NCBI RefSeq assembly: GCF_031455295.1
Contig: NZ_JAVDSL010000001.1
Span: 1,550,001-1,614,000, forward strand
Direction: 5' to 3'
Source of the DNA: Leifsonia sp. 1010
GTDB lineage: Bacteria > Actinomycetota > Actinomycetes > Actinomycetales > Microbacteriaceae
DNA: 64,000 bases
The translations under genes were made by a program, and so were the position numbers. Under the pieces are notes generated by a model. It was not told the origin of the DNA and did no database searches. It saw only the letters and a program-made list of their open reading frames with translations. Shown here piece by piece: positions 49,961-64,000 of this stretch. Numbering within the stretch: the first letter of the stretch is position 1; every line of letters starts with the position of its first letter.

Positions 49961-50803
49961 GTGACGATCACCGGGATGCGCGCCCCCGCCACACTGGACG
50001 AGCTGCTCTCCACGCTCGAGTGGCACGTGGATGCGTCGCGCCGCGAAGCGTTCGATCGCGGGATCCGGATCCGGTTGGAGGGCCCGACCTTCGTCTACGT
50101 CGTCGACGGATCCGTGCGCGTGCGCTCCACCGGCCCCCAGGCGGTGTCGTTCGCCTACGGCGCGGGCGACGTGGTCTTCCTGCCCGGCCGGAACGACGCC
50201 GAACTGACCGCCGACGGCCCCGGCGAGGTCGTTGTCACAGCACTTCGGCCGACAGCCGGATTCCACGCCATCGACCTGCTGCCCGACCATCTCGGCGTCC
50301 ATCGGCTCGCCGACCTCGACCCCGGTGTCGCGCTGCTCGCCTCCCGGATGGGCTGCCAGACCGCGGTCCGTCGCGCGGGCGACCGCGTGATCTGCGGACG
50401 GATGGCGACCACGATCATCTCCGTCGCGATCCGCGCCTGGGCCGAGGGGGAGTGCGCGCCCGACAACTGGCCGGCCGCCGTCGAGGACCCCTTTCTCAGC
50501 CGTGTGCTCGACGCCATGCACACGAACCCGGGGCACCCGTGGACGCTTCGCGACCTCGCCGCCGTCGGCGCGATGTCGCGGACCACGTTCGCCGAGCGCT
50601 TCCGCGAGCAGGTCGGTCAGTCGCCGGCGAGCTACCTCGCGCAGGTGCGCATGGAGGCGGCCATGACCTACCTCTCGCAGGACGGCCTCAGCGTGAGCGA
50701 GACCGCCCGCCTCCTCGGCTACGAGTCGGATGCGGGCTTCAGCCGCGCGTTCCGCCGCCACACGGGGGCGGTCCCGTCCGTCTGGCGGCAGCGCGCGAGC
50801 TGA
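49961..50803 (+). CDS. AraC-family regulator with cupin-type N-terminal domain
   Basis: A 280-residue protein. Residues 30-180 form a cupin-like sensor domain of the kind seen in AraC_binding/Cupin_6 regulators. Residues 195-280 carry the two AraC helix-turn-helix motifs (LRDLAAVGAMSRTTFAERF and VSETARLLGYESDAGFSRAF). A GTG at 49961 or ATG five codons later may start it; neither has a strong ribosome site. Targets are not obvious; the neighbouring SDR and MFS genes are candidates. Confidence 0.83.
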   Translation: MTITGMRAPATLDELLSTLEWHVDASRREAFDRGIRIRLEGPTFVYVVDGSVRVRSTGPQAVSFAYGAGDVVFLPGRNDAELTADGPGEVVVTALRPTAGFHAIDLLPDHLGVHRLADLDPGVALLASRMGCQTAVRRAGDRVICGRMATTIISVAIRAWAEGECAPDNWPAAVEDPFLSRVLDAMHTNPGHPWTLRDLAAVGAMSRTTFAERFREQVGQSPASYLAQVRMEAAMTYLSQDGLSVSETARLLGYESDAGFSRAFRRHTGAVPSVWRQRAS

Positions 50804-50836
50804 ACGAAGCCGATGGCGGTGGATGGACTGCCGCGC

Positions 50837-50842
50837 TAGTGT
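50837..50842 (+). promoter_or_regulatory. Leaderless -10 (TAGTGT) of a small membrane protein gene
   Basis: TAGTGT, 6 nt before ATG 50849; supports reality of the small gene. Confidence 0.6.
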
Positions 50843-50848
50843 CGCCTC

Positions 50849-51157
50849 ATGCAGACGCCCCGATCGGGTCCACCTCGGCGCCTCCACGTTCCGCTCGTCG
50901 TCCTCCTCATCGTCGGCGTGCTCGTGACGGTCGCTGGCGAGGGGTGGTTCCTGACCGCGAAGGACACGGTCGCGAGCAGTGCGCAGCGGTCGAATTCCCT
51001 GCCGACTCTTCCGGTGCACGTCTACGCGCAGTACACCCAGCACCTGCCCGCGATCGACACCTCGGGTCTCTGGACCGGCCTGCTGATTGCCGGGTCGGGT
51101 ATCGCAGTGCTCCTGGCGGCCGCGGCCGTCGCGATCAGGCGGTCATACGTCCGCTGA
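50849..51157 (+). CDS. Small two-helix membrane protein, unknown function
   Basis: A 102-residue protein not recognised by family. A basic N-terminus (PRSGPPRR) leads into a membrane segment (LVVLLIVGVLVTVAGEGWFL, about 17-36); about 38 extracytoplasmic residues follow, then a second segment (TGLLIAGSGIAVLLAAAAVA, about 75-94) and a basic end RRSYVR. Monocistronic, with its own leaderless promoter and a hairpin behind it, so it is probably expressed. No functional clue from neighbours. Confidence 0.65.
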   Translation: MQTPRSGPPRRLHVPLVVLLIVGVLVTVAGEGWFLTAKDTVASSAQRSNSLPTLPVHVYAQYTQHLPAIDTSGLWTGLLIAGSGIAVLLAAAAVAIRRSYVR

Positions 51158-51167
51158 TCGGGCGTGG

Positions 51168-51198
51168 GCCGAGTGGATGCGGCCCGCAGCCACTCGGC
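51168..51198. terminator. Bidirectional hairpin between small membrane gene and MFS gene
   Basis: gccgagtgg / ccactcggc, 9-bp stem extended by an inner gc-rich helix (tgc / gca), in the 45-bp convergent gap. Confidence 0.65.
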
Positions 51199-51202
51199 TC
51201 GC

Positions 51203-52411
51203 TCAGCGCAGAACCGCGCCGCGTCGCCCGGCGCTGCCGAACAGCACGACCCCGACCGCGACGACGGCCACGGCGACGAAGTAGGTGAACCGCACGTCGA
51301 CCGTGTCGACGAGGAGGCCTCCCACGCCTGCGCCGAGCGTGATCGCCAGCTGGAACCCGGCGACGACCAGGCCGCCGGCCGCCTCCAGCCGATCCGGGAT
51401 GTAGCGGCCGGCCCACGTGTTGATGACCGCGGGCCAAGCACCGAAGCCGAAGCCCCACACCACGACCGCCGCCGCCACGACGATGACCGACCCCTGCCCG
51501 ACGATCGCGAGCAGGATGGCGCCGGCGATCAGCGACGGCTGCAGATAGCGCAGCAGCGCCAGGTGCCGATCGGCGAGCGCCCCGACGACCAGGTTGCCGA
51601 TCACTCCGCCGACGCCGAAGGCCACGAGCAGCGCGGCCGCGAACGCCGTGTCCAGCCCGGGCACCTGGTCGAGGGCGAGACGGATGAACGTGTACGCCAT
51701 GAAGTGGCCGAGGACGATCAGGATGTGACCGGCCAGCCCCTGGCGCACTCCCGGTCGCCGCAGGGTGTCGCCGAGGATGCGCAGGCTCGACGCTTCGGCC
51801 GGGGCGACCGGAGGCAGCGCCAGACGCAGCGCGACCGCGACCAGGGCCGTGAGGATCGCCGCTCCGACGAAGACGCCACGCCAATCCACGAGCGCGGTGA
51901 GATACACGCCGACCGGGACGCCGGCGACGACGGCGAGCGTCATGCCGGCGCTCACCGTGGTCAGCGCGCGGCCGAGCCGGTCGGGGGTCGCGAGCGATGC
52001 GGCCACGGTCAGTGACATCGACCAGAAGCCGCTGATGGCGACCCCGATGAGCAGCCGCGCGATCAGCAGGACCCACAGCGAGGGCGCCAGCGCCACGGCG
52101 AGGTTGGAGACGGCCGCGAGTGCCGCGACCAGCACCAGCAGAGTCCGGCGATCCATCCGCGGGATCAGGATGCCGATGGTCGGCGCCGCGAGGAACCCGA
52201 CGAACGCGGTCACGGTCACCGTCTGTCCGGCCTGCCCCGGTGTCACCCCGAGTTCGGCGGCCATCGCGGTCAGCACACCGGAGGGCAGGAACTCGGCGGT
52301 CACCAGCACGAAGCTGGTCAGGAACATGACGATGAGGCCGGCCCAACGCGTGCGCGTGAGCGGCTGGGCGGCGGGAGAGGTGGCCCGGACGGGCGAGGTG
52401 TCTGTCGTCAC
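51203..52411 (-). CDS. MFS transporter (AraJ/DHA1-like)
   Basis: A 402-residue twelve-helix transporter. EFLPSGVLTAMAAELGVTPGQAGQTVT near residue 40 and IPRMDRRTLL near 85 match the sugar-efflux/AraJ group of DHA1; GVPVGVYL near 160 is motif C. The GTG at 52411 begins just before the first helix; a longer frame from 52495 overlaps the neighbouring gene and lacks a ribosome site. It lies 80 bp downstream of the epimerase gene on the same strand and could be co-transcribed. Confidence 0.83.
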   Translation of the reverse strand: MTTDTSPVRATSPAAQPLTRTRWAGLIVMFLTSFVLVTAEFLPSGVLTAMAAELGVTPGQAGQTVTVTAFVGFLAAPTIGILIPRMDRRTLLVLVAALAAVSNLAVALAPSLWVLLIARLLIGVAISGFWSMSLTVAASLATPDRLGRALTTVSAGMTLAVVAGVPVGVYLTALVDWRGVFVGAAILTALVAVALRLALPPVAPAEASSLRILGDTLRRPGVRQGLAGHILIVLGHFMAYTFIRLALDQVPGLDTAFAAALLVAFGVGGVIGNLVVGALADRHLALLRYLQPSLIAGAILLAIVGQGSVIVVAAAVVVWGFGFGAWPAVINTWAGRYIPDRLEAAGGLVVAGFQLAITLGAGVGGLLVDTVDVRFTYFVAVAVVAVGVVLFGSAGRRGAVLR

Positions 52412-52491
52412 CCTTCGACTCTGCCGGATCGCGGACGCCGGCACCTGACTCTGCGTCCGGCGTCGGGCGACCGGGCGTCCCGTGCCGGCGG

Positions 52492-53409
52492 TCACCGGTG
52501 CGCCGCCCGGAGCGCGGCGATCGCGACCTCATGCGAGACGACCGGCGCGTATCCCAGCTCCTCGACCGCCTTCGCCGTGCTCAGCGTGCAGGGCTGCCCC
52601 AGAAACCAGAGCACGGGGACGGGAACGACCTGATCGGCGGTGGCCGCGTCGATCTCCTGGTCGGGAACCGGCGCGCCGACGAGCTCCAGCTGGAGGCTGA
52701 CGAAATCGCGCAGGTCGACCCGCTCCTGATCGGTCACGAAGTAGGCCTGGCCGCCTCGGCCGCGCGTCCAGCCGAGCAGGAGCCCCTCGACGGCGTTGTC
52801 GACGTGGGTCACATCGGTGAGGTGGTGGCCGCCCTCGATCCAGGGCAGTTGCCCGGCGCGAGCCGCATCGGCGAAGCTCGCGATCAGGCTGCTCTCCGGT
52901 CCCCAGACGAAGCGGGGCCGGACGACGACCGCGGTGAAATCGGGGCCGTCGGCGTCGAGCACGATCTGCTCTGCCATCGCCTTCGACGCGCTGTACGCGG
53001 CGGGCGAGTCGGGTCGCAGCGGTGCGCTCTCGTCCACATCCAGCAGCGGGTCGCCGGCCATCAGCGCCGCTTCGGTCCCGCAGTGCACGAAGCGAGGGAC
53101 TCCGGCCGCTCGTGCGGCCTCGACGATCGAGCGCGTCCCGCCGACGGTCACCTGCTCGTGTCGTTCCCAGGGGGCGAGGATGTCGGTCTCCGCGGCGAGG
53201 TGGAAGACGACATCCATGCCGGCCAGGGCGCGGGTCAGGCCGGCCGTATCGTCCAGTTCGGCCAGCACGGCGCGGGCGCCGAGCCGGGTCACCGCCTCGG
53301 CCGACCGCTCGCTGCGGACGAGGGCCGTCACCTCATGACCCTCGTCGACGAGCCGGCCGACCAGCCGCCGTCCGATGAAACCCGATCCACCTGTCACGAA
53401 TACCTTCAT
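52492..53409 (-). CDS. NAD-dependent epimerase/dehydratase family protein
   Basis: A 305-residue extended SDR. The N-terminal glycine motif TGGSGFIGRR at residues 6-15, HLAAETD near 71, then a Tyr-x3-Lys as YSASK near 142, as in 3-beta-HSD/epimerase-like proteins. ATG follows AAGGAG by 7 nt. Divergent from a LysR gene across 95 bp and probably its target. Substrate unknown. Confidence 0.84.
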   Translation of the reverse strand: MKVFVTGGSGFIGRRLVGRLVDEGHEVTALVRSERSAEAVTRLGARAVLAELDDTAGLTRALAGMDVVFHLAAETDILAPWERHEQVTVGGTRSIVEAARAAGVPRFVHCGTEAALMAGDPLLDVDESAPLRPDSPAAYSASKAMAEQIVLDADGPDFTAVVVRPRFVWGPESSLIASFADAARAGQLPWIEGGHHLTDVTHVDNAVEGLLLGWTRGRGGQAYFVTDQERVDLRDFVSLQLELVGAPVPDQEIDAATADQVVPVPVLWFLGQPCTLSTAKAVEELGYAPVVSHEVAIAALRAAHR

Positions 53410-53465
53410 GGCAACTCCTTCTCTCGCTGGGTCCAGCAGTCTGGAGCGGGGATGTGTTCCCTCGG

Positions 53466-53498
53466 ATACATCGAGGTATTGAGGTTCTGGCATAGATT
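53466..53498 (+). promoter_or_regulatory. LysR-type box and leaderless -10 of the LysR gene
   Basis: ATAC-N6-GTAT dyad at 53466-53479 fits a LysR T-N11-A site; TAGATT at 53493-53498 lies 6 nt before ATG 53505. The box sits between the divergent epimerase and LysR genes. Confidence 0.55.
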
Positions 53499-53504
53499 TC
53501 TTCT

Positions 53505-54413
53505 ATGCCGTCTCTCCGCGCCCTCGCCTGCCTCGTCGCGGTGGCGGATGCCGGTTCCATCACCGAAGCGGCGCGTTCGCTCTACCTGTCGCAGCCGGCC
53601 GTCTCGCATCATCTGCTCCAGCTCGAGCAGGAGGCCGGCGTCGCGCTCATCGTGCGGGAGACGCGGGGCGTGCGGCTCACTCCGGCGGGCCGCGCCGCGC
53701 TCGTGGAGGCCCGGCGTGCCGTCGACGCCGCTGACGCAGCGCTGCCGGCGGCAGCCGCGGCGGCGAGGGCGACGGGTGGCGCCATCCGGATCGGATGCGC
53801 CCAGAGCCTCGTGACGGTCCTCGCACCCGTGCTCGTCGACTGGCATCGGCGGAGGCCCGATGTCCTCCTCACGGTGCGCGAGTTCACCACGGTGGAAGAG
53901 GTGACCGCGCGCCTGGATGGCGACGAGGTCGACGTCGTCGTGATGCCCGGACCGGCACCGGCCCGCTTCGTGGGCACCGCCCTCGGGAACGAGGAGATCG
54001 TGCTTGTCACCTCCGCCGACCATTCCCTGGCGGGGACGGGCGCCGTCGAACGGCACGCGCTCGACGGCGCCTCGCTGGTGCACTACGCCCCCGAGAACAG
54101 CTTGAGCGGCTGGCTGGATCAGGCGTTCGCGCGATCGGGGGTGCGTCCGGTGGTGATCATGCGGACCGCGGTGACCGCCGCCGCTCCCCAGCTCGCGGCG
54201 GCCGGTCTGGGCGTCGCGGTCTGCCCCGCGAGCGCGGTGCCCGCGGGACTCCCCGGCGCGGTGCTCCCGTTCTCTCCGATCTGGACCCGCGAGCTCGTCG
54301 CCACGACACGCACAACGCCGCACGGTCTCGTCGCGCACCTCCTCGCGGACCTCCGCCACAGGTTAGCCACCTCGACCGCACACAGTGCCGCATCCCCGGC
54401 TGACGCGCCGTGA
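53505..54413 (+). CDS. LysR-family transcriptional regulator
   Basis: A 302-residue LysR protein. The N-terminal helix-turn-helix spans SITEAARSLYLSQPAVSHHL (residues 18-37), followed by the linker helix, then the two-lobe effector domain (IRIGCAQSL near residue 92 to LGVAVCPASAV near 240). Probable leaderless start. It would control the divergent epimerase gene and perhaps the MFS gene beyond it. Confidence 0.88.
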   Translation: MPSLRALACLVAVADAGSITEAARSLYLSQPAVSHHLLQLEQEAGVALIVRETRGVRLTPAGRAALVEARRAVDAADAALPAAAAAARATGGAIRIGCAQSLVTVLAPVLVDWHRRRPDVLLTVREFTTVEEVTARLDGDEVDVVVMPGPAPARFVGTALGNEEIVLVTSADHSLAGTGAVERHALDGASLVHYAPENSLSGWLDQAFARSGVRPVVIMRTAVTAAAPQLAAAGLGVAVCPASAVPAGLPGAVLPFSPIWTRELVATTRTTPHGLVAHLLADLRHRLATSTAHSAASPADAP

Positions 54414-54451
54414 TAGCGTGCTCTCGCTCGGCCGGCTGAGGGGAGGCGAGG

Positions 54452-55270
54452 ATGGCGAGAAGCGCGACGGCCCGGAGAACGATCGACCCGCTGACCCGCC
54501 CGATCATGCTCGGCCGCGACATCGAGCCGCGCGTCGCGGCGGTGCTGCTTCGCCCGTTCGGCTATCTGCTGGTATCCATCGTCTGGGTGGTGCTGTTCCT
54601 CGCGGCCGTCGCCACTGCCGTCGTCGCCCTTCCGGCCGCACTGTCGGGCACCGTGGGCGACGCCGGGCTGGGGGCATCGCCGGCATTCCATCGCTACGAC
54701 ACATGGATGGCGTTCATCGTGATCCCGCTCGTCATGGCGGTCCTGGGCTGCGTCGGGTACCTCCTGATCCTGGCATCGCTCGGGAACATGCTGGCCGCCC
54801 TCACCCTGTTCGCCCGGAGCCTGCGGCCGTCGTTCCGGCACGAGCGGCTCTCGGCCAGCATCCGCGCGGCCGGCGGTGAGGCCGTCGGACCCTCGACCAC
54901 CGCCGTGACGGGGGTCTCGCTCTCCCTTCTCCCGATGCGCCTCACCCGCTGGACCAAGCTCGTGATGATGGTCCAGTTCAACGGGTGGGTCGTCAACGGC
55001 CCGATGCTCAGCATCGGATCGGTGTGGGGAGCCCTCTACATCTTCACCGTCGGATGGATCCTGTGGCCCGCCACCGGCGTCGGTCTCGTCGTATGCGGCG
55101 TCGTCAGCGCGGCCCTCGCGGGCGTCCTGCTGTGGATGATCTGGCAGCGCCGGTCCGTGTTCCCCACCGTGATGCCCGGAGCGCTCGAGAACAGTCCGTA
55201 CCGCTGGTCCTGGCCCAACAAGCCGCCGGTCGCGAAGAAGCGCGACCGGCGGACGATGCCGTCTTCCTGA
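54452..55270 (+). CDS. Multi-pass membrane protein of unknown function
   Basis: A 272-residue protein with about four membrane segments (near 37-60, 87-110, 190-208, 210-232), a polar loop after the second and a basic C-terminus (PPVAKKRDRR). It contains WPNKPP near the end and GALENSPYRWSW before it, but I recognise no family. ATG has GGGGAGGCGAGG just upstream. It converges on the DHFR-like gene. Confidence 0.65.
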   Translation: MARSATARRTIDPLTRPIMLGRDIEPRVAAVLLRPFGYLLVSIVWVVLFLAAVATAVVALPAALSGTVGDAGLGASPAFHRYDTWMAFIVIPLVMAVLGCVGYLLILASLGNMLAALTLFARSLRPSFRHERLSASIRAAGGEAVGPSTTAVTGVSLSLLPMRLTRWTKLVMMVQFNGWVVNGPMLSIGSVWGALYIFTVGWILWPATGVGLVVCGVVSAALAGVLLWMIWQRRSVFPTVMPGALENSPYRWSWPNKPPVAKKRDRRTMPSS

Positions 55271-55295
55271 CCCGCCGCAGCGGCTGCCGGTCAGG
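55266..55295. terminator. Hairpin at convergent gene ends
   Basis: cctgacc / ggtcagg, with a GC-rich interior, overlapping both stops (55270 and 55291). Confidence 0.5.
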
Positions 55296-55887
55296 CGTAC
55301 TCGGGCCGACCGCCGACGCGGTATGTCAGGCCGACGATGCCGGTCGGGAACACGCGCGTGTCGGTGAGGTCGAGGGCGAAGTCGAGGCCGCGTTCGGGCA
55401 GCCAGCGCTCGCCCTCGCCCACGATCACCGGGAACTGGACGAGGTTCAGCTCGTCGACCAGCTCGTTCTCGAGAAGCCATCGTGCGAGCGCCGCGCTTCC
55501 CACCACCAGCAGCTCGCCGTCGCCCTCGGACTTCAGTTCGCGGACGCGGGCCGCGACATCCCCGGGGATGACCGTCGTGCCCTGCCAGGTCGGGTGGGTC
55601 AAAGTGCGCGAGACGACATACTTCGGCCGGGAGCTGATCGCCTCACCGAAACCGCCGTCATCGCTGCGCGCACCCCAGTAGGTCTCGAACAGCCCGTACG
55701 TCTTGCGGCCGAGCAGGAACGCGTCGGGACGCCGCCAGGTGTCGAGGATGTACTGCACGGCCTCGCCGTCGTTCAGCGGAAGCGCCCAGCCGCCGCGGGT
55801 GAAACCGGGGTCCATCTCCTCGTTATTGCCGCCGTTCGCCTGGGCGACGCCGTCGAGGGTGACCTGGAGACTGATCGTGAGCTTCAT
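55291..55887 (-). CDS. DHFR/RibD-fold reductase
   Basis: A 198-residue dihydrofolate-reductase-like protein of the RibD C-terminal/YyaP group. Residues 1-15 match KLTISLQVTLDGVAQ; LLGRKTYGLFETYW near 58, then VVGSAALARWLLENELVDEL near 125 and FPVIVGEGERW near 153 are the family landmarks. Such proteins bind NADPH; the physiological substrate of this stand-alone type is mostly unknown. ATG preceded by GAGAGGAA. Confidence 0.85.
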   Translation of the reverse strand: MKLTISLQVTLDGVAQANGGNNEEMDPGFTRGGWALPLNDGEAVQYILDTWRRPDAFLLGRKTYGLFETYWGARSDDGGFGEAISSRPKYVVSRTLTHPTWQGTTVIPGDVAARVRELKSEGDGELLVVGSAALARWLLENELVDELNLVQFPVIVGEGERWLPERGLDFALDLTDTRVFPTGIVGLTYRVGGRPEYA

Positions 55888-56219
55888 CGTGTGTGTTCCT
55901 CTCTCTCACCCCTGCAACGAAGGGCCTCCACCCATTTCGACAGCGTCGCGCGATTCGGCTTCGATTTCCACCGTGTGGATGTGTCGCGACACGCCGACAC
56001 GCCGACACGCTCGACCGACGGGATGCGCCCGGGCGGTGACGGGGCGGCTCTCGGATCGCAGGTCGGTCGCCGGCCGCGCGCGTCAAAACTCGCGTCAATC
56101 TGCGGGAAAATCCGTCTCGGCGGAGCGCGGCCCTCGACGCGATCCAGCCTTCGAATGTCGGTGGTAGCCCCTACTCTGGGGGCAGCGAGAAAAAATCCCC
56201 AAAACACAACATGTAGTGG
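55888..56219. other. Intergenic region with no supported gene
   Basis: About 330 bp between the DHFR-like gene and the small-peptide promoter. It contains a short gacacgcc tandem (near 55988-56010) and an A-rich stretch (56190-56210). The base composition near its right end is unusually A/T-rich for the window. I see no convincing coding frame or RNA gene. Confidence 0.6.
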
Positions 56220-56250
56220 AATGACAATCGTGTCATTCGGGTTATATAGT
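56220..56250 (+). promoter_or_regulatory. Promoter with overlapping operator for the 27-residue peptide gene
   Basis: aatgaca-atcg-tgtcatt (56220-56237) is an 18-bp dyad with perfect 7-bp arms. Its left arm supplies the -35 (ATGACA, 56221-56226) and TATAGT at 56245-56250 the -10 (18-bp spacing). This is one of the most consensus-like promoters in the window. Confidence 0.75.
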
Positions 56251-56301
56251 GGGTGAACACCGCGGGAACGCGGATCACCAAGACTTCTAGGGGAGGCCAT
56301 C

Positions 56302-56385
56302 ATGGATTACGAAAACGACAGCGTTGGCGGCTACTCGGTTCCCGTCGACCCCATGGACCTGCTGCAGTGCGACAGCTGCCAGTAA
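56302..56385 (+). CDS. 27-residue peptide ending in a CxxC motif, unknown function
   Basis: A 27-codon open frame too short for usual callers. It starts MDYENDSVGGYSVPV and ends MDLLQCDSCQ. The peptide is acidic, with no signal sequence and no membrane segment; the two Cys form a CxxC pair next to the C-terminus. GGGGAGG lies 5 nt before the ATG. It is framed by a strong regulated promoter and a perfect 16-bp terminator, giving a transcript of about 180 nt. The downstream gene has its own promoter, which argues against a simple leader peptide. A peptide-modification precursor, metal- or thiol-reactive peptide, or small RNA with a coding part are all possible. Confidence 0.7.
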   Translation: MDYENDSVGGYSVPVDPMDLLQCDSCQ

Positions 56386-56403
56386 GGCGCTAGCACCGAG
56401 CAC

Positions 56404-56438
56404 GAAGACCCCGGAGGCCCACGGCCTCCGGGGTCTTC
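56404..56438 (+). terminator. Terminator of the small-peptide gene
   Basis: Perfect 16-bp stem (gaagaccccggaggcc / ggcctccggggtcttc), 3-nt loop, 18 nt after the stop codon. Confidence 0.9.
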
Positions 56439-56479
56439 TGTCGTTCACGGCTGCCAGGGACCGGCGAGGAACGCGCCGG

Positions 56480-56485
56480 TAGAAT
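56480..56485 (+). promoter_or_regulatory. Leaderless -10 (TAGAAT) of the HadA-like gene
   Basis: TAGAAT with a 6-nt gap to GTG 56492; an independent promoter after the small-peptide terminator. Confidence 0.65.
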
Positions 56486-56491
56486 CGTCGG

Positions 56492-56938
56492 GTGCCAGTG
56501 AATCCAGAGCTGCAGGGGCGTGAGTTCCCGCCCACCCGGCCGTACCTCGTCGGGCGAGAGAAAGTGCGCGAGTTCGCTCGGGCAGTCTTCGCGACCTCGC
56601 CGGTCTGTTTCGACGTCGACGCGGCGCGCGCGCAGGGATACCGCGACCTCGTGGCCCCGCCGACGTTCCCGGTCGTGGTTCAGGAGGCGACGCTCGCACA
56701 GCTGCTCTCCGAGCCCGATGCCGGAATCGACTTCAGCCGCGTGGTTCACGGCGACCAGCGCTTCTCGTTCTCCCGCCCGGTGTTCGCCGGCGACGAGCTG
56801 ACCGCGACCCTCCGGGTGACCTCCGTGAAGTCGCTGGGCGCGCACTCGATGGTGACGGCCGAGTCGACCATCGTCGACGCCGACGGCGCGCACGTGGTGA
56901 CCGCCACATCCACCCTGGTCGTGCGAGGAGACGAGTGA
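56492..56938 (+). CDS. MaoC-like N-terminal (HadA/UPF0336-type) dehydratase subunit
   Basis: A 148-residue hot-dog-fold protein of the FAS1-like dehydratase group. PPTFPVVVQEA near residue 56 and RVVHGDQRFSFSRPVFAGDEL near 85 are typical. It has the DQRF/Y-type cap strand but not the catalytic Asp-His pair, which is supplied by the next gene product. GTG start with a leaderless -10. In actinobacteria this pair forms a 3-hydroxyacyl-thioester dehydratase; whether it serves fatty-acid synthesis here is inferred. Confidence 0.82.
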   Translation: MPVNPELQGREFPPTRPYLVGREKVREFARAVFATSPVCFDVDAARAQGYRDLVAPPTFPVVVQEATLAQLLSEPDAGIDFSRVVHGDQRFSFSRPVFAGDELTATLRVTSVKSLGAHSMVTAESTIVDADGAHVVTATSTLVVRGDE

Positions 56939-57363
56939 TGGCCACCCCCGACTTCGACACCCTCACCGTCGGCGACGTGGTCGCCGAGCGCACGGTCGAA
57001 CTGACCCGCGACTCCCTCGTGCGGTACGCGGGCGCCTCCGGCGACTTCAACCCCATCCACTACCGCGACGACATCGCCAACTCGGTCGGTCTGCCCGGCG
57101 TCATCGCGCACGGGATGCTCACCATGGGACTCTCCGTGCAACCGGTGGTCGACTGGGTCGGCGACCCCGCCCTCGTCGCGGACTACCAGGTGCGGTTCAC
57201 CCGCCCGGTCGTGGTCGACCCCGCGGACGGGGCCACTGTGACCGTGACCGCCAAGGTCGGCCAACTGGATGCGGAAGCGCGAATCGCGCGCATCGACCTG
57301 ACCACGACGTTCGGCGGCGAGACCGTGCTCGGCAAGGCGCAGGTCCGCGTCCGGTTGGCATGA
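56938..57363 (+). CDS. MaoC-like (HadB-type) dehydratase, catalytic subunit
   Basis: A 141-residue hot-dog-fold enzyme carrying the hydratase-2 motif: YAGASGDFNPIHYRDDIA with the catalytic Asp and His near residues 40-46, then GLPGVIAHGMLTMG near 55. The ATG overlaps the previous stop by one base; a GTG one codon earlier is possible. It likely pairs with the upstream HadA-like subunit. murB follows with an ATGA overlap, so the three genes are co-translated. Confidence 0.87.
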   Translation: MATPDFDTLTVGDVVAERTVELTRDSLVRYAGASGDFNPIHYRDDIANSVGLPGVIAHGMLTMGLSVQPVVDWVGDPALVADYQVRFTRPVVVDPADGATVTVTAKVGQLDAEARIARIDLTTTFGGETVLGKAQVRVRLA

Positions 57364-58529
57364 CCGACTCGACCATGACCGACTCGCCGATGGCCGACTC
57401 GACGCCGGCGCTCGCCGAGCTCACGACAATCCGCGTCGGCGGCGTGCCGCACCGCCTTGTAGCGGCCGACGACCGCGACGCCGTCGTGGATGCAGTCCGG
57501 GAAGCCCGTGACACCGCCGAGGACTGGCTGCTGATCGGCGGCGGCTCGAACACGGTGGCGAGCGATGAGGGCTTCGACGGGACCGTCATCCACATCCGCA
57601 GCCGCGGTGTCGAGCGTCTGCCCGCGCCCGAAGGCCGGATCCGGCTCCGCGTGCAGGCCGGCGAGCCGTGGGACGACCTCGTCGCCCTCACGGTGCGCAA
57701 CGGCTGGTCCGGGATCGAGGCGCTGAGCGGCATCCCGGGGTCGACGGGCGCCGCGCCCGTGCAGAACATCGGCGCGTATGGCCAGGAGCTCGAGTCCGCG
57801 CTCGTCGGCGTGGAGTTCTTCGACGACGCCTCGGACGAGGTCGTGTACCTCACTCGGCACGAGTTGGGTCTCGGATATCGCACCTCCGTGCTGAAGCGGG
57901 GACGCATCGGTGTCGTGCTCTCGGTCGACCTGGAGCTTGCGGACGGCGCCGTTCCCGGTGCCGTCGGCGCGCCGCTGAGCGCACCCGTGGCGTACGCCCA
58001 GCTCGCGGACGCCCTGGGCGTGCCTCTCGGCGCCCGGGTTCCCGTGGCGGAACTGCGTCGCGCGGTGCTCGCCCTGCGGTCGTCGAAGGGCATGGTGCTG
58101 GACCCGGCCGACCCCGACTCGGTCAGCTCCGGATCGTTCTTCACCAACCCGATCGTGTCGGAGGGGTTCGCCCGCACCCTTCCCGCCAACGCCCCCCGCT
58201 GGCCGCAGGCGCCGCTGGAGGCCGACACGGTGATGGACATCCCGCTCGGCGGAGTGCACCCACTCGATGTCCCGCCTCTCGCGACAGCCGAGTACACGGT
58301 GAAGCTCAGCGCGGCGTGGTTGATCGAGAACGCGGGCATCCGTCGGGGATTCGCGTTGCCCGGCTCGGGTGCCGCCATCTCGTCCAAGCACACGCTCGCG
58401 ATCGTCAACCGCGGGGGTGCGACGGCGGCGGACGTCGCCCAGCTGGCGTCGTTCATCCAGTCGCGGGTGCAGTCCGAGTTCGGCGTGGTGCTGCAGCCGG
58501 AGCCGATCATGGTCGGCCTCAGCCTCTGA
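57360..58529 (+). CDS. murB: UDP-N-acetylenolpyruvoylglucosamine reductase
   Basis: A 389-residue FAD enzyme making UDP-N-acetylmuramate for peptidoglycan. FAD site LIGGGSNTVASDEGFDG near residue 58, IPGSTGAAPVQNIGAYGQE near 122, YRTS near 175, SSGSFFTNPIV with the catalytic Ser near 257, and a C-terminal Glu in QSEFGV near 377. The first 14 residues contain three MTDS/MADS-like repeats, so a shorter start is possible. Located after the dehydratase pair, an arrangement conserved in many actinobacteria. Confidence 0.93.
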   Translation: MTDSTMTDSPMADSTPALAELTTIRVGGVPHRLVAADDRDAVVDAVREARDTAEDWLLIGGGSNTVASDEGFDGTVIHIRSRGVERLPAPEGRIRLRVQAGEPWDDLVALTVRNGWSGIEALSGIPGSTGAAPVQNIGAYGQELESALVGVEFFDDASDEVVYLTRHELGLGYRTSVLKRGRIGVVLSVDLELADGAVPGAVGAPLSAPVAYAQLADALGVPLGARVPVAELRRAVLALRSSKGMVLDPADPDSVSSGSFFTNPIVSEGFARTLPANAPRWPQAPLEADTVMDIPLGGVHPLDVPPLATAEYTVKLSAAWLIENAGIRRGFALPGSGAAISSKHTLAIVNRGGATAADVAQLASFIQSRVQSEFGVVLQPEPIMVGLSL

Positions 58530-58681
58530 CGACGTTCGTGAGTCCGGCGGTCTCGCACCCGGTGGCCTCGCATGCGGCGCAGTGCTGACACCCATCCAAC
58601 TCTGAGAGTTTTCTCACGCCGCGCTCCGTAGGCTGAACCCCAGACGGCGCGTTCGCGCCGGGAAGGACCGGAGGGGACGAC

Positions 58682-59527
58682 ATGGGATTCCTGGACCGCC
58701 TGCTCGGACGCGAGGAACCGCGCCCGAACGGCCAGCAGACGCAGAACACCGCCTACCAGCCGTACGGCGGAGGCCAGGGCCAGCCGCAGGGCCAGGCTCC
58801 CGGCCAGCCTGCCGGTCAGCCGCAGGGCCGCAGTGAGGACGAGATCGCCGTGGAGCGGTACCGGTATCTGCTCCGCACCGCTCCGCCGGAGACGATCGAG
58901 CAGGTGCACGAGGAGGCGTTCGCAAAGCTGACGCCCGACCAGCGGCGCCTGCTGTTCCAGCAGCTGAGCGAGAACGCTCCGGCGGGGGAGCAGCCGCGCG
59001 GCGACGACCCGCGGTCGCTCGCTCAGGCGGCGACCCGCTCCGAGCTCCGTCAGCCGGGCACCCTGGAGCGCGCTCTGGGCGGCAATGGCGCCGGCGGCGC
59101 CGGACGCCCCGGTTTCGGCGGAGCGGGTTTCGGCAGCATGTTCGCCAGTTCTCTGCTCGGAAGCGTGGCCGGTTACGTGATCGGCTCCGCTCTGGTCAGT
59201 GCGTTCCTTCCGGCGCCCGGCGCCGACCAGGCGGACGGCGGCGCCGGCGACCAGAACGGCGACAACCAGAACGGCGACAACCAGGACGGAAACGACCAGG
59301 GCAGCGACCAGAACGGCGGCGACCAGAACGGCGGCGACCAGGGCGGTGACGGGGGCGCCGGCGACGCCGGTTCGGTCGACGCGGCCGGCTGGGACGGGGG
59401 CGGCGACGCCTCCGGAGGCGGCGACTTCGGCGGCGGTGGCGACTGGGGCGGTGGCGGCGACTGGGGTGGCTTCGGCGGAGGCGACTTCGGTGGCGGCGAC
59501 TTCGGTGGTGGCGGCGACTTCATCTGA
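58682..59527 (+). CDS. Low-complexity Gly/Asn/Asp-rich protein with one membrane-like segment
   Basis: A 281-residue protein of unknown function. The N-terminus MGFLDRLLGR is amphipathic; residues 15-50 are Gln/Gly/Pro rich; about 52-100 is a helical region (IAVERYRYLL ... LTPDQRRLLFQQLSE). A Gly-rich hydrophobic stretch near 150-175 (SSLLGSVAGYVIGSALVSAFL) could cross or dock to the membrane. The last 100 residues are GDQNG-type and then GGGDF-type repeats. ATG follows GGAGGGGACGAC. A promoter-like TAGGCT lies near 58629. Ends at a strong hairpin. Confidence 0.8.
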   Translation: MGFLDRLLGREEPRPNGQQTQNTAYQPYGGGQGQPQGQAPGQPAGQPQGRSEDEIAVERYRYLLRTAPPETIEQVHEEAFAKLTPDQRRLLFQQLSENAPAGEQPRGDDPRSLAQAATRSELRQPGTLERALGGNGAGGAGRPGFGGAGFGSMFASSLLGSVAGYVIGSALVSAFLPAPGADQADGGAGDQNGDNQNGDNQDGNDQGSDQNGGDQNGGDQGGDGGAGDAGSVDAAGWDGGGDASGGGDFGGGGDWGGGGDWGGFGGGDFGGGDFGGGGDFI

Positions 59528-59535
59528 CCGGCTGG

Positions 59536-59568
59536 GGGAGGCGAGCGCCTGTTCGGCGCTCGCCTCCC
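59536..59568 (+). terminator. Terminator after the Gly-rich protein gene
   Basis: Perfect 14-bp stem (gggaggcgagcgcc / ggcgctcgcctccc) with a 5-nt loop, 9 bp after the stop; it may also serve the convergent helicase gene. Confidence 0.85.
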
Positions 59569-59607
59569 GCAGCCGCGCTGGCAGCATCACGGGCGGCGTG
59601 GTGGAGC

Positions 59608-61698
59608 TCAGCTGCGCACAGCGGCCGCGAACGGCAGAACCGCCCCTGCTCCCGCGCGGAGGAGCTCCTGACCGGCGACCGTGATCGTCCAGCGACTATC
59701 GACCAGGTCGTCCACAAGGAGCACCGGAATGCCGAACGGCAGGTCGAGCCCGTCGGCGGAGAAGTGATTCCACACCGACGCCAGCCGAAAAGCGCTGTTG
59801 CCGCCGGGTGACCCGGCCGGCGGTCCGCCGCGCCACGCGAGCGTCCCCGCGAAGGGGAGACGCCCGATGCCTGCGAGCCCGCGAGCGAGGGACTCGATGA
59901 GCACCGGTCGCCGACGTGAGGGCATCGCGACGACGGCTCCCGGACGCGCATCCCAATCCCAGTCGGCGAGGACTCGCACGCACGCGTCGAGGACCGCAGT
60001 CGGCACCGGCTGGTCGGCCGCATCGTCCGCCAGCAGCTCGCGCAGTCGCCCGCCCCAGCCGAGGTCGGTCAGTCGGGCGAGCGCCCTCCCCGGCCGGAGC
60101 TGCTGGTCCGGCGCCAGCTTGCCCTTCACCGGCACCCCGAGGCGGTCTGCGCCTGTCGGCCAGAGTTTGCGCGGCTCGACCTCGACGCCGACCCGGTCGA
60201 GGATCGTGCCCACTTCGCCGGACGTGCTGCTGTCCACCTCCGTCGGGTACCAGACGCCCGCACAGTTGTCGCAGCGGCCGCAGGGGCCGGCATCCGGATC
60301 GTCGAGCGCACGCTGCAGGAACTCCATCCGGCACCCGGTCGTGGACTCGTAGTCGAGCATCGACTGCTGCTCGGCCTCGCGCGCGGCCGCGATGCGGGCG
60401 TACCGCTCCTCGTCGTACTCCCAGGGGGCGCCGGTCGAGACCCAGCCGCCGCTCACCCGCCGGACGGCGCCGTCGACATCCAGTACCTTCAGCAGCAGCT
60501 CCAGCGTGGACGCACGGAGGTCGACGCGGCTCTCCAGCACGCGCGTCGACAGGGGTTCCGACCCGAGCGCGTCGAGCACCGCGGCGGCCTTCTCGCGCGA
60601 CGGCATCGAGGCGGTCGCGAAGTACTGCCAGATGGCGCGGTCCTCCGGACCCGGCAGCAGCAGCACGTCGGCGTTCTCCGTCGCCCTGCCGGCGCGACCC
60701 ACCTGCTGGTAGTAGGCGACGGGAGACGACGGCGCCCCCAGGTGAACGACGAATCCGAGGTCCGGCTTGTCGAAGCCCATGCCCAGAGCACTCGTCGCCA
60801 CGAGCACCTTGACCTCGTTGCGCTTGAGCCGACCCTCCAAGTCTTCGCGCTCAGCGGTGTCCGTCTGCCCGGTGTAGGCGTGCGCCTCGTGGCCGGCGCG
60901 GCGGAGCACCCGCGCGGTGTCCTCCGCAGCCGACACCGTCAGGGTGTACACGATGCCGCTGCCGGGCAGGTCGCCGAGGTGGCCGGCGAGCCACGCGAGC
61001 CGGGCGGTGGCGTCGGGCAGAGGGAGCACTCCCAATCGCAGCGATCGCCGGGCGAGTGGCCCGCGGATCGTCACGACCTCGGCTTCCCGGCCGACGCCGA
61101 GCTGCTCCACCACGTCGGCCACGACGCGCTCGTTGGCCGTCGCCGTGGTCGCGAGCACGGGCACGCCGTCGGGAAGCTGCCCGATCAGGTCGCGGAGCCG
61201 GCGATAGTCGGGCCGGAAGTCGTGGCCCCAGTCGGAGATACAGTGCGCTTCATCCACCACCAGCAGTCCGCTGCGCTCGACCAGGGCCGGCAGCTGCGTG
61301 TCGCGGAAGTCGGGATTGTTGAGCCGCTCCGGTGAGACGAGCAGCACGTCGACCGAGTCTTCCCGGAGCCTCGCCGCCACATCATCCCACTCGTGCCGAT
61401 TGGACGAGTTGATGGTCACGGCGCGCACGCCCGCCCGCTCGGCTGCCGCCACCTGGTCGCGCATGAGCGCCAGCAGCGGCGAGACCAGGATGGTCGGCCC
61501 CGCTCCGCGGGCGCGCAGCAGCATGGTCGCCACGAAGTAGACGGCGGACTTGCCCCATCCCGTGCGCTGCACGACCAGGGCTCGTCGATGATCGTCGACC
61601 AGAGCGCTGATGGCCTCGAACTGCCCGTCGTGGAACTCGGCTTCCGGGCGCCCGACGAGGGCCCGGAGGCTGGAGAGGGCATCTGTTGCGGTGGTCAT
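59608..61698 (-). CDS. RecQ-like DNA helicase with C-terminal phosphoribosyltransferase-like domain
   Basis: A 696-residue superfamily 2 helicase. Motif I RTGWGKSA near residue 47, motif II DEAH near 153, ATTATA near 188, motif VI QVGRAGRA near 330. A RecQ-type zinc cluster (GCRME ... CGRCDNC) lies near 460-485. After about 500 the sequence no longer matches RecQ: residues 650-690 read PVLLVDDLVDSRWTITVAGQELL, a typical phosphoribosyltransferase PRPP loop. No HRDC domain. ATG 61698. Such helicase-PRTase fusions occur in actinobacteria; the role of the tail is unknown. Confidence 0.85.
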   Translation of the reverse strand: MTTATDALSSLRALVGRPEAEFHDGQFEAISALVDDHRRALVVQRTGWGKSAVYFVATMLLRARGAGPTILVSPLLALMRDQVAAAERAGVRAVTINSSNRHEWDDVAARLREDSVDVLLVSPERLNNPDFRDTQLPALVERSGLLVVDEAHCISDWGHDFRPDYRRLRDLIGQLPDGVPVLATTATANERVVADVVEQLGVGREAEVVTIRGPLARRSLRLGVLPLPDATARLAWLAGHLGDLPGSGIVYTLTVSAAEDTARVLRRAGHEAHAYTGQTDTAEREDLEGRLKRNEVKVLVATSALGMGFDKPDLGFVVHLGAPSSPVAYYQQVGRAGRATENADVLLLPGPEDRAIWQYFATASMPSREKAAAVLDALGSEPLSTRVLESRVDLRASTLELLLKVLDVDGAVRRVSGGWVSTGAPWEYDEERYARIAAAREAEQQSMLDYESTTGCRMEFLQRALDDPDAGPCGRCDNCAGVWYPTEVDSSTSGEVGTILDRVGVEVEPRKLWPTGADRLGVPVKGKLAPDQQLRPGRALARLTDLGWGGRLRELLADDAADQPVPTAVLDACVRVLADWDWDARPGAVVAMPSRRRPVLIESLARGLAGIGRLPFAGTLAWRGGPPAGSPGGNSAFRLASVWNHFSADGLDLPFGIPVLLVDDLVDSRWTITVAGQELLRAGAGAVLPFAAAVRS

Positions 61699-61790
61699 GA
61701 AGCCATCGTGTCAGGGACGCCTGACGCCCGCTCCCCTCCGAGGACATCGGTGGAGAACGGGCGTCGAAGCTGTTCTGTGGACGGAACCGG

Positions 61791-62126
61791 TCAGATCCGC
61801 ACGCGCTCACGTCTGCGCTGGGAGGCTCGGATGCCGCCGAGCAAGGCGGAGACGACGATGACGAGTCCGATGACAGCGGCTCCGAGCGCCCAGGCGGAAC
61901 CGGGGGTGAGTGCCGCGAGCCAGTCGCCGACCTCACGGACGCGTCCCGACGACGCCAGCACGTAGAGGGTGGCGCCGGCGAACAGTGTCAGCAGCAGCCC
62001 CCAGATCACGCCGCCCCAGCGCACCGGTGCTTCGCCGGTCGGCGCGGTGAACGGTGGTCCCGTGAGGGGCGCCGTCTCGGAGATCGAGCCCTCGTGCGGT
62101 GCGTTCTGCGGCTTCTGGTCGGTCAT
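61791..62126 (-). CDS. Small two-helix membrane protein
   Basis: A 111-residue protein: a polar 35-residue N-terminus, a membrane segment near 39-58 (VIWGLLLTLFAGATLYVLAS), a short loop, a second segment near 75-97, and a basic tail RASQRRRERVRI. ATG follows GGGAGAGACGACC. It lies 37 bp after the PspC-domain gene on the same strand and is probably co-transcribed with it, so it may act in the same envelope-stress context. Family not recognised. Confidence 0.72.
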   Translation of the reverse strand: MTDQKPQNAPHEGSISETAPLTGPPFTAPTGEAPVRWGGVIWGLLLTLFAGATLYVLASSGRVREVGDWLAALTPGSAWALGAAVIGLVIVVSALLGGIRASQRRRERVRI

Positions 62127-62163
62127 GGTCGTCTCTCCCGGTCGATTCTCGGCCAGCACGGGA

Positions 62164-63459
62164 TCAGTGCTGGAGGAGCGCGGGCAGCCCGACGCTCGTC
62201 AGGTGGATGCCGGCGACGTTGTCGCCCGCGAGGAACAGTGCGGCCGTCGTGAGCACGGCCAGCAGGATCCCGAGGAAGATCAGGAATCCGCTGCGACGCC
62301 GCGCCAGCCCGGCGATGAGCACGACGACACCGACGACGAGCGTGGCGGCGGCGAGCCCGGCAGCCGTCGTGAAGCGCGTGACGTCCGCCAGTTGCGGCCA
62401 CACGATGGCTACCAGGGATCCGGCGACCAGAGCGAGCCCGACGGTCAGCCAGCCGATCGCCGCGCCGACGCGCGGATTCGCCGCCCGGTAGGCCTCTCGG
62501 CGCGCAGCCGCCTCGGCTGTCGCGGTGGCGACCTGGGTCCGGAGCTCGGCCGCGCGTTGCGCCTTCACTGCGCGCATATCCGCGGCGAGACGCTGCTTCC
62601 ACGCTGCATGCTCCGCGCGCCACTGCGCCTGACGCTGCTGCCAGTCGGCGACCTCGTCGGCGGAGGCGCCCAGTCGCGGTGCGGGTGGGGCCGTCGGCTC
62701 GGCAGCGGTGTCCAGCTGCGGTGCGGGGATGGATGCGGCGCTCGCCGCCGGCACGGTCGAGGATGACGCCGCCGCAGAATCGCTTGCCGAGGGAGGGGTA
62801 CCGGCGTCCGCGGACTCGTTAGTCGAGCCGGCGGCACTCGTGTCCGCCGTGAAGGCGCTCGCCGCAGCCGTGTCGGCGCCGGTAGGGCCGGTCGTCCCGG
62901 ACGCACCGGAACCGGCAGCGGGCGCCGCCCGCGTCGCCGCCCGGGCATCCGAGTTCCGCACGGCGATGACGATGAGCGCGACCACCGCGCCGATGACCAC
63001 CAGCGTCCAGATGACGCGGCCGATCACATCGCCCCAGTCCGGAACGTTCCAGAACGGCCCGTCGGCCCACCAGACGCCGCTCGTCCACGGCAGCAGTGAG
63101 AGCAGCGCCATGACGCCGATCGCGACGATCGGCGGCTGGAAGTCGCCCTCGAAGAGCTGCTGGAGGTGGATGCGGCCGTCACGGTCCGGCAGGAGCGCCC
63201 ACGCCGCCGCGTACAGCAGCAGCACGGGTGCGCCGAGGATGCCGGCCACGACGATGATGCCGCGCACGATGAGCGGGTCGATGCCCAGGCGGTACGCGAC
63301 GCCGGCGCTCACTCCGCCGAGCCAGCCGTCGGCCCGGACGATGCCGAGACCGCGCATCCAATCGAAGAAGCGCGTTCCGCGGCCGGAGAATCCGGTCTGC
63401 GGACCGCCGTAGGGGTTCGCGGGCGTCCCCACCGGGGGAGTCGAGTCGTTCTGTGACAT
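62164..63459 (-). CDS. PspC-domain membrane protein
   Basis: A 431-residue protein. Residues 25-95 form a PspC domain (GWLGGVSAGVAYRLGIDPLIVRGIIVV, then AAAWALLPDRDGRIHL). A second membrane pair follows near 110-160, then an Ala/Ser/Thr-rich low-complexity region (about 170-260), a charged helical stretch (EVADWQQRQAQWRAEHAAWKQ near 270) and three more membrane segments to the end. ATG 63459 gives MSQND; an ATG three codons earlier is possible. Divergent from another PspC gene, the usual actinobacterial arrangement for envelope-stress sensing. Confidence 0.85.
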   Translation of the reverse strand: MSQNDSTPPVGTPANPYGGPQTGFSGRGTRFFDWMRGLGIVRADGWLGGVSAGVAYRLGIDPLIVRGIIVVAGILGAPVLLLYAAAWALLPDRDGRIHLQQLFEGDFQPPIVAIGVMALLSLLPWTSGVWWADGPFWNVPDWGDVIGRVIWTLVVIGAVVALIVIAVRNSDARAATRAAPAAGSGASGTTGPTGADTAAASAFTADTSAAGSTNESADAGTPPSASDSAAASSSTVPAASAASIPAPQLDTAAEPTAPPAPRLGASADEVADWQQRQAQWRAEHAAWKQRLAADMRAVKAQRAAELRTQVATATAEAAARREAYRAANPRVGAAIGWLTVGLALVAGSLVAIVWPQLADVTRFTTAAGLAAATLVVGVVVLIAGLARRRSGFLIFLGILLAVLTTAALFLAGDNVAGIHLTSVGLPALLQH

Positions 63460-63574
63460 GTTCCCCATCCTGGCGTCGGGCTTCGCGCCCGGGTATCGGG
63501 TGAACCCCTGAGCGGACCCTGATTAGGGCGGCCATCGGGTGCGGGTCCCCTCGGGGTCTGCTTGGATTCTGACT

Positions 63575-64000
63575 ATGTCCTCCACAGCGCCCGCCGGTTC
63601 GCGCGCCGGCCTGCCGCGGCCCCCGTTGGCCCGGCCGCGCACGTGCGCCGTGAGCGGGGTGAGCGTCGCGCTCGCCGACCACCTCGGCTGGCCGGTCGCG
63701 GCCGTGCGCTGGGCGTTCGTGGGCGCCACGTTCCTGGGCGGCGCCGGCATCCTGCTGTACCTCTGGCTGTGGGCGTTCACGCCGTTGCGTGCCCCGTCGG
63801 GAGTCGACCCCGCGGACGGCGTGCGCCGCCGGGTGAACCTGCCCTGGCTGCTCGCCGGCGCCGGTGCGGCGGCGGGCATCACGGCCGTGGTCCTCGCTGC
63901 AGGTGGAGCACTCGGCCCCGGCTTCGGGGCGCTGGTCGCCTGCGCCGCCCTGCTGGTGCTCGCCGTGGCCTGGGAGCAGTTGGCGGACGAGGAGCCGGTC
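63575..64000 (+). CDS. PspC-domain sensor kinase-like protein (3' end outside window)
   Basis: 142 residues are visible, open to the window edge. After a Pro/Ala-rich start comes a PspC-like domain (CAVSGVSVALADHLGWPVAAVRWAFV, about residues 24-49; then LYLWLWAFTPL) and two further membrane segments (about 94-112 and 115-133). In actinobacteria a PspC protein divergent from another PspC gene is usually a histidine kinase followed by a LuxR-type response regulator; the kinase part would lie beyond base 64000 and is not seen. Start ATG is preceded by TGGATT with a 6-nt gap. Confidence 0.78.
   Translation, partial: MSSTAPAGSRAGLPRPPLARPRTCAVSGVSVALADHLGWPVAAVRWAFVGATFLGGAGILLYLWLWAFTPLRAPSGVDPADGVRRRVNLPWLLAGAGAAAGITAVVLAAGGALGPGFGALVACAALLVLAVAWEQLADEEPV

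Follow-up and report, generated by a model that had tools for sequence, protein, structure and literature searches.

What is the purpose of a 27-codon gene that has its own promoter, ribosome-binding site and terminator, and whose acidic product ends in a CxxC pair? The gene lies in the window (the whole 64,000-nucleotide stretch of Leifsonia sp. 1010 DNA that was analysed), and all of its features are on the + strand. The reading frame runs from the ATG at 56302 to the TAA at 56385 (56302..56385, stop included) and encodes the 27-aa product MDYENDSVGGYSVPVDPMDLLQCDSCQ. The parts described in an initial annotation made from the sequence alone were all read where they had been placed. The dyad AATGACA-ATCG-TGTCATT, two arms around an N4 centre, covers 56220..56237 and is a possible site of a second regulator. 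Its left arm contains the -35-like hexamer ATGACA (56221-56226), separated by 18 bp from the -10 element TATAGT at 56245-56250. A ribosome-binding site, GGGGAGG, is located at 56290..56296, and most relatives compared have (G)GGGAGG or AGGAGG. An intrinsic-terminator-like hairpin with a perfect 16-bp stem and a 3-nt loop follows the gene at 56404..56438.

The stand-alone peptide gene is real and conserved. It was found in 28/28 same-genus genomes, with 82-99% identity in the 27 others (DNA search), and the reading frame is kept in every copy; the relatives without the frame against which the initial annotation had cautioned did not appear. Across the last 21 codons of the 28 copies, the DNA varies in 11 codons and the amino acid in only three (S/T, A/S, L/M). 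The variable sites are mostly at third positions (2, 1 and 10 at codon positions 1, 2 and 3). The 5' leader sequence varies between relatives, and the DNA alignment stops near the ORF end, before the terminator, in 14 of the 28 genomes. The terminator is perfect in the window as claimed, but only in 21/28 copies is the ORF followed, inside 130 nt, by a perfect stem of 9 bp or more.

Looking for the C-terminus in relatives, as had been proposed, proved productive. The DNA search matched further sites that cover only the later part of the ORF. These belong to different small ORFs with one common extreme C-terminus, roughly YxVPVDPMDxLQC[DE]SCQ, and they led to the C-terminal redox tail of the class I ribonucleotide reductase (RNR) alpha subunit, NrdA, to which the peptide end (VPVDPMDxLQC(D/E)SCQ) is homologous by alignment. 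In the window the homologous segment is VPVDPMDLLQCDSCQ (56338..56382), with C23 and C26 of the CxxC pair and the terminal Q27. All three residues are invariant in an alignment of 20 rows of fused and free tails. The initial annotation is supported where it sees a conserved CxxC peptide gene under regulation, with thiol chemistry as the likely activity.

RNR is an essential enzyme that produces DNA precursors. Outside Microbacteriaceae the tail is part of this enzyme. A fused CxxC tail was found in 35/36 NrdA proteins, and the remaining one runs off its contig; the set comprises the 35 other genomes with an NrdA match in an order search (198 genomes) and one class-level genome. The nearest outside NrdA proteins end in ..VDGVACPVDPMERLQCESCQ, of the type (C)PVDPM(E/D)xLQC(E/D)SCQ, and more distant ones in ..ACSIEDPECEACQ or similar. 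One fused NrdA (L198) reads ..ARRGFGGLQPHVDVIDGEECPVDPMERLQCESCQ, which puts the split point directly after an RRGFGG-type motif, near which Microbacteriaceae NrdA proteins end. No free tail was seen outside the family in a phylum-wide profile search (396 genomes, E 0.001), an insensitive search because it also missed fused CEACQ-type tails (for example in G191). Beyond the own genome it matched only G577, where the 909-aa frame is a fused NrdA, and G639, with a partial, weak match in a 357-aa frame.

Within Microbacteriaceae NrdA ends before the tail. NrdA C-termini were obtained at 70 loci out of 75 (69 genes, because L102 and L164 are the same one), and 69/70 have no cysteine beyond the YYL motif. 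The exception is L126, where NrdA looks frameshifted and a tail ORF is present too; its genome has 86% completeness and 5% contamination. In 65/70 loci a tail ORF ends at most 450 nt after nrdA, L126 also has one, and four loci have none. The usual place of the tail gene in NrdA-bearing members of the family is between nrdA and nrdB. For example, contig C4 of the own genome carries nrdA (832 aa), a 25-aa tail ORF and nrdB, with the GTG start of the tail overlapping the nrdA stop. Among named sequences, the nearest NrdA relatives come from Leifsonia. The partner NrdA retains its catalytic core (a PF02867 match, and NF005101 above cut-off), and the core cysteines and the YY pair align with those of a solved large subunit, whose roles we take them to share. 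It is of class I type, with nrdB following, and not of the B12-dependent class II type of NrdJa/NrdJb.

In a FastTree phylogeny of a 150-residue core segment, which left out L155 (short) and 16 further loci, 68 split NrdA sequences fell in one clade (local support 0.83) with 0/20 fused sequences inside. The tail apparently became detached from nrdA in NrdA-bearing Microbacteriaceae in one event. The detached tail would have become its own gene, usually in the order nrdA-tail-nrdB, with a separate gene under an nrdA-like promoter in addition. As a side observation, the nearest match of the own-genome NrdB (L031:3322-4311, - strand, contig C4) is the chlamydial-type beta subunit 1syy, with which it shares a Phe that is Tyr in the 1syy variant 2ani. 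The own-genome enzyme may accordingly belong to class Ic and lack a tyrosyl radical.

The position of the linked tails raises an alternative, namely that programmed frameshifting or readthrough adds them to NrdA in cis, and that the stand-alone gene, as a paralogue, does something else. When the start closest to the nrdA stop is used, tail ORFs overlap or abut that stop in most of the 64 linked loci (offset -4 in 21, -1 in 25, 0 in two, +2 in five, +3 in four, other in seven). This overlap would allow cis fusion of linked tails and counts against a tail working in trans. The 64 linked tails do not keep to one frame relative to nrdA (51, 8 and 5), and one conserved programmed frameshift as the general route to the tail is therefore disfavoured; most of the offset variation looks like ordinary translational coupling. 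The linked tail is also absent from four genomes. Joining in cis is consequently improbable.

These four genomes are best seen against the distribution of the peptide in the family. A strong NrdA match was found in 70/150 family genomes; the other 80 had a weak match (28-32% identity among the matches listed), probably the class Ib NrdE, or none (five genomes). The tail peptide occurs in 70/70 NrdA genomes and in 1/80 of the others. The single non-NrdA genome with a tail, G139, is 77% complete, and weak peptide matches in four more non-NrdA genomes (G038, G086, G134, G166; E 0.007-1.41) had been set aside as chance before the count. The co-occurrence represents largely one event and not 70, because the split clade is one lineage. 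In G149, G080, G163 and G042 there is no tail between nrdA and nrdB, and nrdB starts 5, 58, 3 and 95 nt after nrdA, respectively (the 58-nt gap of G080 was read by eye). The same genomes have 3, 1, 1 and 1 unlinked peptide matches. G149, G080 and G042 encode a single PF02867 protein (RNR large subunit) and G163 two. With no linked tail, the tail in these genomes must act in trans, if their RNR needs one; the second RNR of G163 is a point against this reading.

The peptide is thus very probably a stand-alone copy of the class I NrdA redox tail, the dithiol arm of a split class I reductase that would act in trans. The case is built from sequence: tail homology, the loss of the tail cysteines from NrdA, co-occurrence, the genomes with unlinked copies only, and a shared promoter layout.

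The promoter evidence was absent from the initial annotation, as were the paralogues beside nrdA, on plasmids and in phages. Around the dyad lie two NrdR-box-like sequences. Sequence 1, ACACAACATGTAGTGG (56204..56219), scores 10.5 against an assumed 16-mer NrdR consensus (threshold 9). Sequence 2, TCGGGTTATATAGTGG (56237..56252), is weaker, lies over the -10 element and scores below the threshold in the window, so that only box 1 passes here, a point against the proposed explanation. Both fit a tandem pattern of two boxes, CACNANATNTNGNG and TATATAGTG, 20-26 nt apart. This pattern has exactly two sites in 26/28 genus genomes and three in G007 and G009, and the backward control of the pattern gave no sites in the 28 genomes. 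One site per genome contains the dyad of the stand-alone gene. In the three genomes whose positions were checked (G000, G015, G022), the other lay some 100-130 nt upstream of nrdA. Judged by the pattern, the promoter layout of the stand-alone gene is common to nrdA. Scored with the assumed consensus, nine nrdA promoters had both boxes passing in six, one in two and none in the own nrdA (L031), which fits the tandem pattern despite this; among 12 stand-alone relatives both boxes passed in five and box 1 only in seven, and a further two loci gave no result.

The start-to-start distance of the boxes is 31-33, which leaves 15-17 bp between them. NrdR repression is reported at 15-17 bp between boxes in the available text of PMC12051234, and that of PMC9110341 describes the boxes as about three helix turns apart. 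NrdR is encoded in 5/5 genomes tested, above the TIGR00244 cut-off. From the tandem layout, the spacing and the presence of NrdR, the predicted NrdR control of the stand-alone gene is likely. The dyad between the boxes is exact in 47/58 upstream stretches (three of them duplicates), with conserved arms and a variable centre. Its exact arms occur once per genome, at the stand-alone gene, in 27/28 genus genomes, and G027 has a second site. The dyad is therefore apparently a putative operator for a single gene, and a dyad regulon was rejected on the same count. No RNR connection was seen among the neighbouring genes in 55291-57363. On the - strand there is a reductase-like ORF with a weak TIGR01508 match below cut-off. 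On the + strand there is a HadA-like ORF, below model cut-offs, and then an ORF that we take to be HadB-like.

Free tails are also carried by mobile elements. TBLASTN searches with the peptide found it in the phages phiPsal1 (Pontimonas), CMP1 and CN1A (both Clavibacter, each in two records) and in 19 plasmid records (Clavibacter 15, Leifsonia 3, Gryllotalpicola 1); a match in a Staphylococcus phage with an E of 10 was taken as chance. No RNR large subunit was found in 5/5 records searched whole (two phages, three plasmids). Among viral contigs, a pattern scan gave matches in at least 120 stretches. The 80 that were examined all carry the tail, ended by a real stop codon. A rough start rule assigns 69 of these 80 (of at least 120) a length of 60 aa or less, and 11 are longer or unclear. 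Within the fetched stretches alone, NrdA was seen in 1/80 and NrdB in 3/80 (80 of at least 120). One viral contig (L271:9828-13977) encodes a 1120-aa tailless NrdA with an intein-like insertion, with the tail gene before it and nrdB after it. Upstream of the viral tails, TATATAGTG was found within 250 nt in 0/80 (80 of at least 120), which also weighs against the proposed explanation. Some tails sit on longer proteins. A 93-aa protein ending in the RNR tail, for example, was observed in L040, L043, L045, L047 and L048, on small or large contigs, and three longer tail-bearing proteins including the L040 copy had no Pfam match above cut-off.

It could be supposed that the free tails, or at any rate the stand-alone and mobile ones, compete by docking on NrdA, so that RNR is damped or redirected instead of driven. 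Carriage by phages and plasmids that lack an RNR large subunit (all five records searched whole) would suit such a role, as would the tails sitting on other proteins. Stand-alone and phage tails, however, retain the two cysteines and the final Gln, three NrdA genomes have no detected tail other than the stand-alone copy, and the stand-alone gene has the same promoter layout as nrdA. Competition is accordingly as improbable as joining in cis. The functions first proposed for the peptide (natural-product precursor, metal- or thiol-responsive peptide, cysteine-sensing leader or dual-function RNA) agree with a short, acidic product with strong expression signals and a CxxC end, but nothing was seen for them, the tail homology, nrd linkage and nrdA-like promoter point to RNR instead, the leader sequence is not conserved, no Rfam family was found in 50000-64000 at gathering thresholds, and no modification enzyme was recognised by eye among the ORFs of 52000-62000 (profiles were run on two neighbours only), so they can be regarded as extremely improbable.

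The class I RNR alpha subunit normally carries its own swinging dithiol tail; here the tail is a free peptide of 20-40 aa. It remains like the fused tail in sequence (VDGVACPVDPMERLQCESCQ vs VGGYSVPVDPMDLLQCDSCQ), in its CxxC pair and terminal Gln, and in its nrd operon or promoter, but it has its own gene (about 20-40 codons) and lies outside the NrdA polypeptide, an additional copy is unlinked, and host free tails have Val in place of the extra Cys of CPVDP. NrdH-redoxin and thioredoxin, small folded CxxC proteins that serve RNR and reduce the tail, have the CxxC in common with the peptide, whereas the peptide is homologous to the tail itself. According to the available text of PMC4520616, C-terminal cysteines of class I and class II RNRs take part in disulfide exchange at the active site; the split class II RNR of Pseudomonas aeruginosa has a separate protein, NrdJb, that supplies this dithiol exchange. 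By analogy with that enzyme, the free peptide most likely supplies the dithiol to NrdA, again as C-terminal cysteines on a separate polypeptide. The same text describes NrdJb as a class II component of 229 residues in the same operon, unlike the class I tail of 20-40 aa, which is partly unlinked and found on mobile elements.

After each turnover, the CxxC of the free peptide would reduce the NrdA active-site disulfide by thiol-disulfide exchange, and the oxidised peptide would presumably be reduced by a thioredoxin-type protein. The stand-alone copy would set tail supply apart from the enzyme core, through NrdR and a second regulator at the dyad. Phage and plasmid tails would act on the host RNR, presumably to the benefit of the phages. 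The chances seem even that the redox arm has become a diffusible, exchangeable peptide in a wider sense, with hosts tuning RNR by tail supply from a stand-alone gene that has an operator of its own, and RNR-less phages and plasmids driving or redirecting host dNTP synthesis with tails of 20-30 aa that they carry themselves, in some cases as part of other proteins. Copies in elements without an RNR suggest a very small means of acting on host nucleotide metabolism. A natural free tail makes trans action, docking, and whether reductive turnover limits cellular dNTP supply testable. No detached class I tail was found in the literature searched, which included the accessible portions of PMC9531940 and PMC9669993 and had most subscription papers outside its scope. 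What appears new here is that an RNR of another class is split, and that its detached part is no more than a peptide, which is in part unlinked and also mobile.

Of the 80 viral tails examined, eight (L226, L238, L242, L243, L253, L258, L261, L299) retain the additional Cys found in fused tails (CPxDPM), and these may be older or separately derived. Tail peptides are easily overlooked, because neither of two host peptides scanned matched an NCBIfam model and no annotated feature covers several of the copies in public records; a PDB sequence search with the 25-aa tail also gave no match. A 33-aa plasmid tail peptide (L081:3962-4063, NZ_CP065038.1) is annotated as 'ribonucleotide-diphosphate reductase subunit beta', a name that may have come from the gene beside a linked copy.
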